Shown here piece by piece: positions 325 through 26,886 of a DNA stretch of 27,404 nucleotides. Both the position numbers and the translations under genes were made by a program. The notes beneath the pieces are model-generated. The model did no database searches and was not told where the DNA came from. It saw only the letters and a program-made list of their open reading frames with translations. The DNA is from a virus: positions 1 through 27,404 of IMG/VR virus record IMGVR_UViG_3300031673_000384; one strand, 5' to 3'. Every line of letters starts with the position of its first letter. Within the stretch, counting starts at the first letter, position 1.

Positions 325-1779
325 TTATTTCCCGATGTTTTTCCAGTAACCGTTGAACCGAGGAGTGTATACGAAGAGGGCTCCGTATAGAACTACTGCA
401 AACTCAAGAGCAGTTGTGACGATTGCGAAGTTGATCTTGCTTAGAGGCGAGAGCTGCTTGAATCGCATGCATTCAGCGGTAAGGTCAAGCATGTATGCTT
501 CACCTAGACCAGGTCGCTTACGGCCAGCATCACGGATAGTGGCTGATGGCTTGTAGTTACCAATGAACTGCTCAGTACCAGCGGCTCCACCAGCTTCTGT
601 TCGGTAGAGTTTAAGATACTTAGTTTCAGCAGGAACAGTAACCGTAAGATCAACCGCATCAGTACCAGTGGTAACAACAGTAGTTGTAAAAGATGCAGAA
701 GGTGCACTTTCACCGAAGTCGTTAACAGCAGTAATTTTGTAGAAGTATCCGCCAGCAGCTGCTGCATCAAGTGCACCAGAAGCAGCAACCAATGCGTCAG
801 CAGTAATAGCTGGAGCAGCAGGTGTTTTAGCGTTTACAGCCTTAGGTCGAGCACGAGCTCTTGATCGCAAGAACAAGTTTGGCTTAAGATCCATTGAACC
901 AGCAGTTGTTTGGACCTTACTTACGTCATAACCAACTGTTTGATTGGCAAGACCTGGAGCAGATCGGAACTGAGGGTAAAACTGTCGAACAAACTTAGAT
1001 AGAACCAAAGGCTCTAGGTGAATCTGATCTGGTTGACCGAAGTTCTCAAGAAGGATAACGGAGAGTTCTTCAACGTCGTCTTGAGAGATGGCAGCACCAT
1101 CAAGGTCACGGGCGATTGACTCGAAGTCGCCGAAGCCTTCGAAGTCTCCAGAGCGTTGTTGCTCATCGGTATCACCGCGAGTAAGCTGCTGAAGAAGGCC
1201 GTTCATAGCGATTGAGCTAGAAGGAAGGTCAGAATTAAGACCAGTTTGTGAACCATCGACTGGGTTAGTAAAGTGACCGTGGCCCCAATACATTTCACGC
1301 TCGATGTTCTTAAGAAGGTGCATAGTACCTTCTTTTGCCTGTTGAGCAACGACGTCACCAACAGTTGTTCGGACCAAAGTCATCTGGTGCGATACTTTCC
1401 TACGAGTACCGAAGAAGACGATCCTTTGTCCGTCTCGGATGTAAGTGCTATCTTCTTCTTGTGGAGCACCACCTTCTCCGATATAAGGAGAAGAATCCGA
1501 ACCATAACTAGTCAAGCGATTGTACTGCTCGAACAGGTTGTAGGCTTTGTCGATTGAGATCGCAGGCCAAAGCTTGAGATTCTTCATATCGAAGGTTACT
1601 GACTTGAGAGTGGTTTCAAGACTCTCTGACTGAATGACTCCACCATAGGTGAGGTCTGTTGGCTTACCGGCTCCACCATAACCAGCGGTAATGGCTTTTT
1701 GTAGGTTTTCGACTTCTTCAGGACTAACAATGCCCTGTTCGATACCCTGCTGGATGTTATTTACTGCTTCGTTAAACAT
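325..1779 (-). CDS. Major capsid protein with N-terminal targeting segment and inserted beta domain
   Basis: This 484-residue protein is the likely HK97-fold shell subunit. It follows protease and scaffold-like genes, the canonical head order, and is the last gene before a strong terminator. Residues 1-55 are helical and then Gly-rich (TAGYGG at 31-36) and look like the delta/targeting segment removed by the prohead protease. Residues about 320-420 form a separate beta-rich Ig/FN3-like stretch (YFYKITAVNDFGESAPS, LKLYRTEAGG) inserted before a hydrophobic C-terminal strand region (VVLYGALFVYTPR). This layout, including the TGYG-like motif, resembles capsid proteins of SPO1/Twort-type phages as I remember them; no search was run. 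The ATG is preceded by AAGGAG. No HK97-type crosslinking residues could be assigned. Confidence 0.87.
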   Translation of the reverse strand: MFNEAVNNIQQGIEQGIVSPEEVENLQKAITAGYGGAGKPTDLTYGGVIQSESLETTLKSVTFDMKNLKLWPAISIDKAYNLFEQYNRLTSYGSDSSPYIGEGGAPQEEDSTYIRDGQRIVFFGTRRKVSHQMTLVRTTVGDVVAQQAKEGTMHLLKNIEREMYWGHGHFTNPVDGSQTGLNSDLPSSSIAMNGLLQQLTRGDTDEQQRSGDFEGFGDFESIARDLDGAAISQDDVEELSVILLENFGQPDQIHLEPLVLSKFVRQFYPQFRSAPGLANQTVGYDVSKVQTTAGSMDLKPNLFLRSRARARPKAVNAKTPAAPAITADALVAASGALDAAAAGGYFYKITAVNDFGESAPSASFTTTVVTTGTDAVDLTVTVPAETKYLKLYRTEAGGAAGTEQFIGNYKPSATIRDAGRKRPGLGEAYMLDLTAECMRFKQLSPLSKINFAIVTTALEFAVVLYGALFVYTPRFNGYWKNIGK

Positions 1780-1790
1780 TTAATTACTCC

Positions 1791-2624
1791 TTAGTTAATG
1801 CTATATTTTTCAGCGATTTTAGCAAGCTCAGCAGGGTTGCCCAGCTCGACAGACATTATGTCTAATGTATCTACAGATGTTCCTGATTTCTTCAATTCAA
1901 AAAGCTTATTCACTAGTGTTGACTTGTTCAAGGGTTCAGTACCTTCGTCTGCGCTCTTCTGAAGCGGTGTTAGACTCTTGTATGAAGATCCTTTAGAAGG
2001 AACTGGTGCATCAGCAATATCTTTTACGATATCGAACATCTTTTCAAATTTGTCCTCGAAAGAGGAGAGGCGTGTGTCAATGTATGACTTCATGAGATCC
2101 TGTGAATCATCGATTGACTTCTTGAAGGGGTTTTCACCTTTTTTCTTCTTTTTCTTGTCGTCATCATCATCACAATCTTCGTCATCATCATCACAATCTT
2201 CGTCATCATCGGCTTTGGCCACAGGTTGATGCTTGCCGCCATTTGGATCAGCTTGACGGTTTTGACCATCTGCCTTATCCATGTCGTCATCCATCTTATC
2301 CATGTCGTCGTCAGCCTTAGCTACTGGCTGATGCTTTCCACCGTTTGGATCTGCTTGACGATTCTGACCATCTGCTTTATCCATGTCGTCATCGTCTTTG
2401 TCTTCGTCTTCTTTCTTGTCATCTTCATCTTCATCTTCGTCGTCAGCCTTTTTAGCATCAAGCTTACCATTAGATGGTTTGCCTCCGATACCTTTACCAG
2501 GACCTTCGATTTTGATTTCAGACGCGGAAAAACGGTTGGACTTTTTAAGTTCCTCCAGTTCATCCATGGTCTCGTCGATAAGTGCAACCAAACCTTTTTT
2601 CATCTCTTCTGTAATATAGCTCAT
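1791..2624 (-). CDS. Acidic repeat protein, probable scaffold or internal head protein
   Basis: 277 residues. The N-terminal helix (1-30) leads into a highly acidic low-complexity region (about 57-156) with many Asp, two identical 22-residue segments (83-104 and 117-138) and a DEDCDDD duplication holding two Cys. A Lys run (157-162) and helical C-terminal half follow (about 165-277). Position directly upstream of the capsid gene and the acidic, helical make-up fit an assembly scaffold or core protein, which would act inside the prohead and be degraded by the protease. That role is inferred from context only; no scaffold family motif is recognised. The start is supported by GGAG nine bases upstream. 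The long plus-strand frames here are composition shadows of the Asp codons. Confidence 0.72.
   Translation of the reverse strand: MSYITEEMKKGLVALIDETMDELEELKKSNRFSASEIKIEGPGKGIGGKPSNGKLDAKKADDEDEDEDDKKEDEDKDDDDMDKADGQNRQADPNGGKHQPVAKADDDMDKMDDDMDKADGQNRQADPNGGKHQPVAKADDDEDCDDDDEDCDDDDDKKKKKKGENPFKKSIDDSQDLMKSYIDTRLSSFEDKFEKMFDIVKDIADAPVPSKGSSYKSLTPLQKSADEGTEPLNKSTLVNKLFELKKSGTSVDTLDIMSVELGNPAELAKIAEKYSIN
2161..2202 (-). repeat. 21-base perfect tandem duplication (2 copies)
   Basis: Two adjacent identical 21-base units (2161-2181, 2182-2202) encode DEDCDDD twice in the acidic protein. Perfect identity suggests recent slippage, unlike the older diverged repeat nearby. Confidence 0.85.
2211..2378 (-). 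repeat. Two 66-base coding repeats, identical in protein, diverged in DNA
   Basis: Copies at 2313-2378 and 2211-2276 encode the same 22 residues (KADGQNRQAD...HQPVAKA) with a 102-base offset. By hand comparison they differ at 13 of 22 codons, all synonymous. Confidence 0.9.
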
Positions 2625-2649: not shown

Positions 2650-3048
2650 TTACTCACCAAGTCCCATTAGGTGGGCGTGTCCAGCAACTCTTTCGTCGCC
2701 AGCAGATGATTCTAATACGATATCATTTGCAAAGCCAGCAGCTTCTGCAAAAGCAGTTATCTTGTCAGCAGTATCAAGTACGGCGGCAAGTGCAACAGCA
2801 GGAGTTGACATTCTAATAGATCCGGCACCGGCTTTTCCAATACCAAGGTAAGGAGAAGCTGTGTCTTCAACACCAGTCATTGGGTTGTTTGAAGTAGGAA
2901 AGCTTTCCTTGGCATCATAAGTTATGACCAAAGCAGTTCCATTTGTAATGGTAATTGTGTTGGCATCAGTTCTGACCAAGTTTGCAGCTTGACCTCGCTG
3001 TTTCATATTTCTCTCGATCTTGTCGAGAATTTGTACGCTATTAGACAT
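2650..3048 (-). CDS. Head-region protein of unknown function (132 aa)
   Basis: I do not recognise this protein. After a short basic N-terminal helix (1-20) it has beta-type segments (TITITNGTALVITYD, 31-45), a central Gly/Ala-rich part and a C-terminus ending GHAHLMGLGE. No signal peptide, membrane segment or Cys motif is seen. It is the first gene after a good promoter (3097-3124) and precedes the scaffold-like and capsid genes, so abundant expression with the capsid is likely. A capsid decoration or head-stabilising protein would fit the location and size, but that is inference only. Start ATG follows AAGGAG with normal spacing. Confidence 0.7.
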   Translation of the reverse strand: MSNSVQILDKIERNMKQRGQAANLVRTDANTITITNGTALVITYDAKESFPTSNNPMTGVEDTASPYLGIGKAGAGSIRMSTPAVALAAVLDTADKITAFAEAAGFANDIVLESSAGDERVAGHAHLMGLGE

Positions 3049-3160: not shown

Positions 3161-4207
3161 TTAGAGCATTACGCTTAAAAGCTTCTGTAATGACTGATGT
3201 TTATTGCATTTTCTGCATTTTACTTGGTGTTTCATGTAGACTTGTTCATGACCGCAGTCTCCGCAAGTCATGTACTTCATTCCCTTTTCCAGAGACTCAG
3301 TCTTCTTCTTTTTCTTCTTCTTTTTCTTTTTAGGTCGACCATCATCTAAGGATTCAGACTGAAGTACTGATCCACCTGTCTGAGAGGTTGGAGCACCTCC
3401 GCCACCATATCCAGCAGTAAGGGCCTTTTTAAGATTTTCAGGCAATCCTTTAACCAACTCGTGAATCTTCTGAATATTACCATGTATTTTCATCTCTAAA
3501 GCTTCTTTTATTAACTGTTCTGGGGTAAAGGCTTTGACTAATTCTGTTCCTAAACCTAGTTCTGCAGCAATCTCTCTAATCTTCTCCATATTCTGGTAGA
3601 TCTTCTCTGCTTGGGCATTTCTAGTAATAGCTCTGAAAGAAGGGATATCTGTTTGTGCCAAGTGCATGACAGACTTAATTAGGAGCATATCAGCCTCTGT
3701 GTCTGCTGACTTCTCCATTTGATATGGTTCTACTAGTGTGGCATTATTGGCTGGAGTAAAGGTAAGAGCTACAGAGTGTATCTTGGTTCTAGCAAGCAGT
3801 GTCTCATCTTTGAGACCACGTTGAACAACTCCACCTTCGACTGAGGCTTTTAATTTCAGGGGCGTATCGGATTTGTGTATATTTCTAAGGATAGCGGCTG
3901 CTGCCTTAGCATTGCCATGATCCTCATCATCATATAAGTATCCTCTGACATAGATATAGGGAGCTTTAACTTTGTCCCAAAAGTATTCATGCCTAGGATC
4001 AGTGAAATCATCTGGGCCATATATCTTCTTGGCACTAGTGACTCTACCTACAGAGTTGAAGAAACCTTTGCCGTGATTATCATTGAAACGACCTCGCCCA
4101 GCTTCTAGTTCCGAAATGTCGGCGCCCTCAACAGAGAGCATCTCTCCCTGAGTATCCCGCAGCTGACTACCGGCTATCATATCAATTTCTAAAGGTTTCT
4201 TCGCCAT
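3161..4207 (-). CDS. Prohead protease with capsid-like C-terminal segment and zinc ribbon
   Basis: 348 residues. Residues 1-165 look like a prohead maturation serine protease: a candidate catalytic His45 (NDNHGKGFF), Ser122 in LKASVEGG and the following HSVALTFTPANNATLVEP strand, the pattern expected for phage capsid proteases. It should cleave scaffold and capsid N-termini in the prohead. Residues 170-257 are helical. Residues 258-288 match capsid protein residues 25-55 without gaps. Then come ten consecutive Lys (293-302) and a CxxC-12-CxxC zinc ribbon (C315, C318, C331, C334) ending at 348. The tail beyond residue 165 may be a built-in targeting and self-cleavage region. The catalytic assignment is by motif only. 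The start codon is within a hairpin (4203-4224) and follows AGGAGG. Confidence 0.85.
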   Translation of the reverse strand: MAKKPLEIDMIAGSQLRDTQGEMLSVEGADISELEAGRGRFNDNHGKGFFNSVGRVTSAKKIYGPDDFTDPRHEYFWDKVKAPYIYVRGYLYDDEDHGNAKAAAAILRNIHKSDTPLKLKASVEGGVVQRGLKDETLLARTKIHSVALTFTPANNATLVEPYQMEKSADTEADMLLIKSVMHLAQTDIPSFRAITRNAQAEKIYQNMEKIREIAAELGLGTELVKAFTPEQLIKEALEMKIHGNIQKIHELVKGLPENLKKALTAGYGGGGAPTSQTGGSVLQSESLDDGRPKKKKKKKKKKTESLEKGMKYMTCGDCGHEQVYMKHQVKCRKCNKHQSLQKLLSVML

Positions 4208-25140: not shown

Positions 25141-26886
25141 TTACTCCTGAGCTGAGGCCATCATCTGGTCAAAGGCTTGCTTGCCTAATGCCATCTGTGT
25201 CTCCATTTCTGGGTTGGAAGGTGTCACCACGATGCCTCCTAAGGTAATCAATAATGCCGCTACAGATAATGCATTACCAATACTAACCCTAACAACCTTG
25301 CTTGGCTCAATTATACCTGCCTCGAAAGGATTCACGAAGCAGTGTCCGCTGGCATCAAACACCAGAGCTGGTAATTCAGTACTAACTCCATATTCATCAG
25401 ATAGCTTACATAGAATTTGCTGCTCATCTTCACCGCAATTCTCTAGTAGGCGTAAAAAGGGTGCCCTTAATGCCTTTGCCAGCAGAAGCCAAGATGATTT
25501 TGTTTCATATGCAACTGCCCCATTGGGTGAAACTTCTCCAATTGGACTGCCTCGTTCTAACATAGCTGCCATGATCAGATGAGTACTGCATCCACCAGTT
25601 ACTATGCCTTCTGCAATTGCAGACCTGACAGCCTCTACAGCATCCTCAGTCCTATCTTTCTTCTCTCTAATCTCAAGATCCGATGAACCACCAACTAAGA
25701 TACTAGCAATACCACCAGATAATCTGGCAATGTGGGCCTTTAGATGAGACTTGTCATAATCACTGAATGCGTCAGATAAGATTGATCTCAACTCTGTGAC
25801 CCTGGCCTGTATATCTGATGGTGCAGGGTCTGATGTGAGGAAGGTTTCATAGGTATTGATGATGACTTCTGTGAACTCGCCGATACCAAAATCTGAGATC
25901 TGATCGATTGTCCCTGGATCATATACTTCTGCTCCAGTATAGGCAGCCAAGTCATCTAACATGATAGAAGCACCGTTTGGAAGTCCTGATCTAGGAGTTT
26001 TAACAGGCACGATCATTAGACCTCCTTTTGAAGTCTTTGCAAAAGCATCCAGTACAGAATCGGCAAAATCATGCGCTACAACAATGATTGGCTTGCCATC
26101 TGACTGAACACCACCCTCATCTGTGACGACATCTTGAATTCTTGCAGGAACTGATAGATCGTTTAGTCTTCCGTTATATAGGAATACGTGGCCGTTGTCC
26201 ATTCTTGTTTTCTGACCTGCCTTGTCGTTGATAAAGACTGGACCAATTTGACCTAGATCCTTTAGGCCACTAGTTAGTACAAAGCTCTTGACAGTATCTA
26301 TCTTAGTTTCCCTACCTTGACCCTCGAGAATCTGAATGTGTCCATCATCTCCCGCTTCCATGATGGCGGAAACTACAACGTTAGCAATCTCTTTATCTCC
26401 ATTACAGGAGATAGTTGCCACATCTAATAGAAGCTCTTCTGTGTTGGCTTCCATAGAAACATCTTTTAAGAAAGGAACGATGACTGTATTGTACGCATCG
26501 TGTAATTCATTGACCAGTCTCTGTGGATTGTATTTTGGGTTGTCTCTTAGAAACTGCTGCCCCATATCAACAAGGGCGTTGGCCAATACAATTGCTGTTG
26601 TAGTTCCATCACCAGCTTCTGCTGCAGTATTGATGCAAATCTCTTTGGCAGCATCTACTACGATATTGTGTGCAGCATTGCCCATACCTAAAGACTTAGC
26701 AACCGTCACACCATCTTTGGTAACTAGTGGTGCAAGTCCTTCTCGTTCTATTAGAACTGGTCGACCACCTGGACCCAAGGTTGCACCTACGATTGTGGCC
26801 ATGGAGTTAAGTGTCTCAGACACTGTACTGATCAGCTTGTCCTTGTCAGACATGATCTCTTTTGCCCGTGACTTTTCGTATATCAT
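25141..26886 (-). CDS. groEL: GroEL-type chaperonin (Cpn60)
   Basis: 581 residues against about 548 for bacterial GroEL. ATP-binding motifs are intact: TLGPGGRPVLIE (36-46), TKDGVTVAK (56-64), and EAGDGTTTAIVLA (90-102, Asp93). The IREKKDRTEDAVEAVRSA segment keeps the catalytic Asp corresponding to E. coli D398. There is no Gly-Met tail; it ends SAQE. Phage chaperonins of this kind exist in Pseudomonas phages such as EL and may fold phage capsid or other proteins; no GroES-like gene is visible in this window, so it may act alone or use the host co-chaperonin. The ATG at 26884-26886 overlaps the methyltransferase stop by ATGA, with GGAG upstream. The longer N-terminus aligns with the start of host GroEL. 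Confidence 0.95.
   Translation of the reverse strand: MIYEKSRAKEIMSDKDKLISTVSETLNSMATIVGATLGPGGRPVLIEREGLAPLVTKDGVTVAKSLGMGNAAHNIVVDAAKEICINTAAEAGDGTTTAIVLANALVDMGQQFLRDNPKYNPQRLVNELHDAYNTVIVPFLKDVSMEANTEELLLDVATISCNGDKEIANVVVSAIMEAGDDGHIQILEGQGRETKIDTVKSFVLTSGLKDLGQIGPVFINDKAGQKTRMDNGHVFLYNGRLNDLSVPARIQDVVTDEGGVQSDGKPIIVVAHDFADSVLDAFAKTSKGGLMIVPVKTPRSGLPNGASIMLDDLAAYTGAEVYDPGTIDQISDFGIGEFTEVIINTYETFLTSDPAPSDIQARVTELRSILSDAFSDYDKSHLKAHIARLSGGIASILVGGSSDLEIREKKDRTEDAVEAVRSAIAEGIVTGGCSTHLIMAAMLERGSPIGEVSPNGAVAYETKSSWLLLAKALRAPFLRLLENCGEDEQQILCKLSDEYGVSTELPALVFDASGHCFVNPFEAGIIEPSKVVRVSIGNALSVAALLITLGGIVVTPSNPEMETQMALGKQAFDQMMASAQE

Follow-up and report, generated by a model that had tools for sequence, protein, structure and literature searches.

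In the large SPO1-type phages, it is still poorly understood how a few protease molecules are brought into the procapsid, silenced and later activated. The locus described here encodes a head maturation protease that carries a close copy of a segment from the N-terminal part of the capsid protein. The window (the whole stretch of viral DNA that was analysed; positions 1 to 27,404 of the IMG/VR record IMGVR_UViG_3300031673_000384) is a 27.4 kb virus fragment. Its head genes lie on the minus strand and encode terminase, portal, protease, a 132 aa protein, an acidic scaffold and capsid (Table 1). A sequence-only reading of this DNA had pointed out the similarity and proposed that the segment is of the delta type and could let the protease co-assemble with capsid and scaffold and mark cleavage sites in both proteins.

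Table 1. Head genes of the window and the parts of their products discussed in the text
Feature	Position	Strand	Basis
Major capsid protein, SPO1 gp6.1 type, 484 aa	325..1779	(-)	phrog_752 major head protein, E 4e-62
Predicted capsid propeptide, residues 1-28, removed at K28/A29	1696..1779	(-)	Alignment to phage K, in which S25, the residue following K24, is the first of chain 9row_B
Capsid copy of the module, K28-E55 (cut-site Lys and start of the mature N-arm)	1615..1698	(-)	Protein alignments
Acidic putative scaffold, 277 aa, without the module	1791..2624	(-)	Sits between protease and capsid, as SPO1 gp3.3 does
132 aa protein of unknown function, between scaffold and protease	2650..3048	(-)	ORF
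Head maturation protease, 348 aa	3161..4207	(-)	phrog_1028 head maturation protease, E 3e-11
Protease catalytic domain, residues 1-160	3728..4207	(-)	Invariant H45 and S122; confident beta-rich model
Helical linker, residues 161-257	3437..3727	(-)	AF2 helices 170-183, 191-216, 229-253
Protease copy of the module, K261-D288, predicted self-cleavage at K261/A262	3344..3427	(-)	Alignments; predicted disordered
Linker with a run of 10 Lys, residues 289-308	3284..3343	(-)	Sequence
C-terminal zinc-ribbon-like module, CxxC...CxxC, residues 309-348	3161..3283	(-)	Invariant Cys columns in relatives; pLDDT about 90

The head proteins of the window and their shared segment

The window capsid is an SPO1-type capsid protein by homology. 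It matches the solved SPO1 Gp6.1 chain 9vel_C with an E value of 1.5e-58, and it is 29-32% identical to the capsids of the SPO1 group. The putative scaffold had no match in the family library, and no family match was obtained for the 132 aa protein. The same fragment carries a GroEL-like chaperonin gene at 25141-26886, as read from the sequence only.

By profile similarity to phrog_1028, the protease is a caudovirus prohead protease (S78/U35, herpesvirus-protease-like fold). The window protease itself had no match in Pfam; the SPO1 and phage K homologues do match PF04586. H45 and S122 do not vary in any of the aligned homologues and are likely the catalytic residues. The AF2 model has a mean pLDDT of 79, and its best structural match is T4 gp21 (5jbl; Z 9.2, 125 residues, rmsd 2.8), with herpesvirus proteases ranking next. 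A plain Foldseek search with this model gave nothing under E 0.001. Residues 266-307 have a pLDDT under 50 and are predicted to be disordered. In the model, the shared segment sits in a disordered stretch between the helices and the confidently modelled zinc-ribbon-like C-terminus, for which the Pfam zinc-ribbon matches are weak only. A lysine run similar to that preceding this C-terminal module occurs in one relative (L006) and is not conserved among the others.

Protease residues 258-288 (DNA 3344-3436) align without gaps to capsid residues 25-55 (DNA 1615-1707), and 21 of the 31 positions are identical, in agreement with the original hand count. When the whole protease was compared with the whole capsid by blastp, a single significant block was returned (22/32 identities, E 2e-10). 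The ungapped BLOSUM62 score of the segment is 114, and the maximum among 2000 shuffles was 53. Searching the window with the segment returns the same second site, in the capsid. At the DNA level 58 of 93 positions are identical, and different codons are used at 14 of the 21 identical residues, so a recent duplication does not account for the similarity.

The similarity has its left border at K261 of the protease and K28 of the capsid. Further left the identity is at background, with the one exception of a hydrophobic residue two places before the lysine. To the right, the similarity ends about 28 residues beyond these lysines. From the alignments, the shared unit appears to be a 29-residue module made of the maturation cut site (the P1 lysine) and the first 28 residues of the mature capsid N-arm.

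A tail shared between protease and scaffold was also considered. The window scaffold has no match to the segment, and its sole match to the protease tail is the lysine run, so the two do not share a tail in the window. Among the isolates, the capsid arm has no match in the scaffold except in Revolver and MA9V-3, whose weak alignments score close to shuffled sequences. A tail common to protease and scaffold was therefore ruled out.

The predicted cut site

The capsid chains of phage K-type virions (9row, 9rox and 9roz) begin at Ser25, directly after K24, as read from the deposited chain sequence. The HK97 capsid is cut at K103/S104 (PMC10275583). Because the module lysine adjoins the start of the phage K chain, the shared unit is the cut site together with the start of the mature N-arm, and not the propeptide. 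Within the window clade, every protease (63/63) and every capsid (63/63) has the P1 lysine. By alignment, we infer cuts at K28/A29 of the capsid and K261/A262 of the protease.

The proposal that the segments mark a cut in both proteins is thus plausible, given the invariant lysine at the border, the phage K start and the HK97 precedent. The delta-type label has to be given up. A delta domain, or propeptide, precedes the cut made at maturation, and in this region the two window proteins show no similarity; the segment begins at the cut-site lysine and runs downstream into the mature N-arm. The unrelated upstream parts rule out a duplication of the delta domain. The sequence-only reading had also staked itself against a mature capsid that keeps its first 55 residues. 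By homology the prediction is divided, as residues 29-55 would be kept and residues 1-28 lost. A cut towards the end of the segment, behind QSE or SLE as a T4/phiKZ-like Glu rule would suggest, was dropped because the phage K 9row chain starts at the Lys/Ser border, where the segment begins.

We noted that the scaffolds of several phages are rich in minimal sites of the form K-[SA]-hydrophobic. The observed and expected numbers are 9 vs 1.1 in SPO1, 9 vs 1.1 in EalM-132, 7 vs 1.0 in LysYB1, 7 vs 1.2 in phage K and 5 vs 0.7 in Touem01, and the AVP scaffold is likewise strongly enriched. The portal, sheath and terminase of phage K show no such enrichment. These counts fit a protease that would cut K-[SA]-hydrophobic sites and whose own copy would be a self-cleavage site. 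The window scaffold is not enriched (2 vs 1.0 expected), which weakens the cut-site step for the window clade.

The module could then be a cleavage site and nothing else. The length of the similarity would reflect an unusually extended substrate groove, and the uncut tail would act as a pseudo-substrate that silences the enzyme until it is inside the shell. The border of the similarity falls exactly at P1, and the scaffold sites are of a similar kind. T4 gp21 (PMC9958956) and SPN3US gp245 (PMC10052503) are zymogens activated by self-cleavage. The same scaffold sites tell against this explanation, since they consist of K-[SA]-hydrophobic only and a short motif thus seems sufficient for cutting. 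We regard it as a possible but somewhat doubtful account, for further reasons that follow from the variation among relatives.

Distribution and covariation of the two copies

The relatives sample comprised 80 IMG/VR capsid relatives, with both genes readable in 63. One entry (L087), which is the window itself with a capsid assigned in error, was excluded. The sequence-only reading was to be refuted if homologous proteases were without the segment; the segment is present in 63/63 close relatives and in most distant ones. The insert before the arm ranges from 0 to about 650 aa, and the piece from the module lysine to the C-terminus is approximately 70-80 aa with few exceptions. The arm was lost in L128 and is degenerate in L172.

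Each with its own matched version, the module is also present in SPO1, EalM-132, LysYB1, Alsa_1, SIOphi, Mater, Listeria phage AG20 (A511-type), Brochothrix A9, P59, Enterococcus Revolver and phage K, which are Herelleviridae or Herelleviridae-like. The clearest example is A9, with KSMTTGYEHGGTDQTDGSALRRQSLA in the protease and KSMTTGYNHGGTDQFNGQALRRQSLA in the capsid. Outside the Herelleviridae it was found in Myxococcus Mx1 and Pseudomonas Touem01; an IMG/VR search with the Mx1 capsid found no relatives. AVP and Thermus Lalka8 gave a weak module match, and the segment profile detected no module in DAC16, MA9V-3 or Lalka8. The protease-capsid pairs of HK97, D3, T4 and T5 showed no significant module match, ruling out a module common to all prohead proteases. 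When the segment profile was run on 16 whole phage records, exactly two sites were found in each, protease and capsid (16/16). With just two copies per genome, a general tag for internal proteins, such as the T4-type capsid targeting sequence, was ruled out.

The two copies covary. Own protease-capsid pairs have a mean score of 101.8 against 64.5 for swapped pairs, and 0/20000 permutations reach the own value; the capsid arm is nearly invariant inside the window clade, so that the test is powerless there and the covariation is visible only between clades. Across 98 non-redundant phages, the cross score drops from 102 to 44 with growing distance between the capsid bodies (Spearman -0.79, 0/500 permutations). 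At the variable positions between +1 and +28, identity is higher in own pairs than in swapped ones. At position +24, which is E or Q, the residues match in 0.95 of own pairs and in 0.31 of swapped pairs. The covariation along this stretch suggests that one surface would have to recognise both copies along their length during shell assembly.

The similarity might have been a neutral leftover of an old duplication, or the product of gene conversion between neighbouring genes, as the two genes lie close together in one gene block. Among identical residues, the same codon is shared at 136 of 307 against 139.5 expected from codon usage, so there is no trace of conversion, and recent duplication or gene conversion is ruled out. 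Sharing at this level means that selection on the protein keeps the copies alike; copying of DNA is neither needed nor seen. An old duplication followed by drift would make each protease copy equally similar to all capsids, and the higher similarity of own pairs contradicts it. We consider a neutral or conversion origin very improbable.

Several relatives carry further domains in the protease. In L035 (5023-6708) and about 25 related window-clade proteases (alignment A3), an insert of approximately 150-260 aa precedes the arm. It has a predicted lytic transglycosylase-like fold (best Z about 12 to Slt-type enzymes) with ESSGG and GGMFGMMP motifs; such a cell-wall enzyme, built into the maturation protease, may be a packaged cargo. 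The proteases of L008, L016, L017 and L084 are 930-1010 aa long and contain extended arrays of HEAT-type repeats (Pfam HEAT E 5e-17 for L008). The array lies between the catalytic domain and the arm; in L017 it follows the arm and precedes the zinc ribbon. A 702 aa protease (L043:2354-4459, minus strand) has a GNAT acetyltransferase-like insert (Pfam E 2e-4). The annotated prohead protease of Myxococcus phage Mx1 (L001:11962-15681) is 1239 aa long. It extends approximately 900 residues further beyond the arm and has a kinase-like motif that falls below the cut-off (PI3_PI4_kinase, E 0.015). In L172, L112 and MA9V-3 (L091:4267-5865), the protease is followed by a long acidic scaffold-like region in one reading frame, an apparent fusion. 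The fate of the arm in these fusions is mixed: it is lost in MA9V-3, degenerate in L172 and kept in L112.

Recognition of the arm and comparison with known systems

We think it probable, from sequence comparison, that the protease module combines two roles. It would be a self-cleavage site, and it would also mimic the capsid N-arm and be recognised like it, for recruitment or for timing. Cutting alone and recruitment alone are narrower forms of this combined model, and the weight given to each overlaps with the weight given to the whole. The protease would enter the forming shell with its C-terminal tail still attached, the arm being a disordered stretch between the catalytic part and the small C-terminal domain. 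A component of the procapsid, either the capsid lattice or an extended protease surface, would recognise this arm as it does the capsid arms. The protease would then cut itself at K261/A262 and the capsid at K28/A29, and the catalytic domain would be parted from the tail. Co-assembly by way of the segment, as first proposed, is plausible.

Several published observations bear on these steps. The SPN3US protease removes its own 64-residue C-terminal propeptide with the specificity that it uses on head proteins (PMC10052503). The N-termini of T4 gp23 are disordered in the prohead and become N-arms upon expansion (PMC9958956). Peptides of the prohead protease were detected in Bc431v3 virions (PMC3601020).

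Both the length of the covarying stretch and the high variability of the linker make it more likely that recognition extends past the active site. Against cutting alone, the covariation is strong 24 residues beyond the cut, which is past a normal active-site cleft, and a fixed fit in cis is unlikely given the 650 aa spread in the length of the linker that precedes the arm. The AF2 protease models show disorder only and no docked arm. This absence of cis docking speaks against cutting alone, and it counts against the combined model as well.

Under recruitment alone, the arm would dock at the capsid N-arm site, or at the same partner, and carry the protease and whatever cargo is fused to it into the procapsid; cleavage there would be secondary. 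The whole arm covaries, and its C-terminal placement resembles the C-terminal region of the HK97 protease, which is reportedly capsid-targeting. The proteases of MA9V-3 and L172, in which the arm is lost or degenerate, are fused to scaffold-like regions. However, L112 has such a fusion and keeps the arm, and DAC16 has neither arm nor fusion. The N-arm is flexible in Prohead I of HK97 and D3 (PMC10275583, PMC12749128), which may mean that a docking site is absent until maturation. We regard recruitment alone as unlikely, though worth keeping in view. A more speculative idea, to which we give little credence, is that the tail is a product mimic. The C-terminal piece left after self-cleavage would bear a mature-capsid N-arm and take an N-arm position in the shell, and the window clade would also use this address to carry fused cargo (lytic transglycosylase-like, GNAT-like and HEAT-repeat) into the head.

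Across phages whose hosts differ widely, a 28-residue stretch of the module changes in step in enzyme and substrate, which singles out the residues to mutate in easily grown model phages. From the module, the position of the capsid cut can also be predicted throughout the family, and the module is a candidate packaging address.

The T4 capsid targeting sequence is a short peptide tied to head entry and cut by the prohead protease (PMC9958956), but it occurs on several cargo proteins, whereas the module is in protease and capsid only. SPN3US gp245 also autocleaves a C-terminal propeptide at the head-protein specificity (PMC10052503), a step that is predicted from sequence here; it cuts after Glu, and the available part of that report describes no extended copy of a capsid arm. 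HK97 gp4 and its capsid share with the present system the protease fold class and, by prediction for the window, a cut between Lys and a small residue that frees the capsid N-arm, but the HK97 and D3 proteases carry no significant copy of the capsid N-arm. The SPO1/phage K type proteases of the Herelleviridae, such as SPO1 gp3.2, have a module matching their own capsid between the catalytic and a small C-terminal domain. This domain is small and helical there, whereas it is a zinc ribbon in the window clade, and the herelleviruses examined lack the large protease inserts. In the open-access literature we found no description of the protease-capsid similarity, including for the SPO1/K type; subscription papers were mostly outside this search, so the similarity may have been noticed already. 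In herpesvirus and lambda-type protease-scaffold genes, the protease tail bears the sequence of a co-assembling partner together with a cut site, and this partner is the scaffold. Here the scaffold is without the module, and the partner is the mature arm of the capsid. A protease tail shared with an assembly partner is thus known for scaffold proteins, and the sharing of the capsid mature arm appears to be new.
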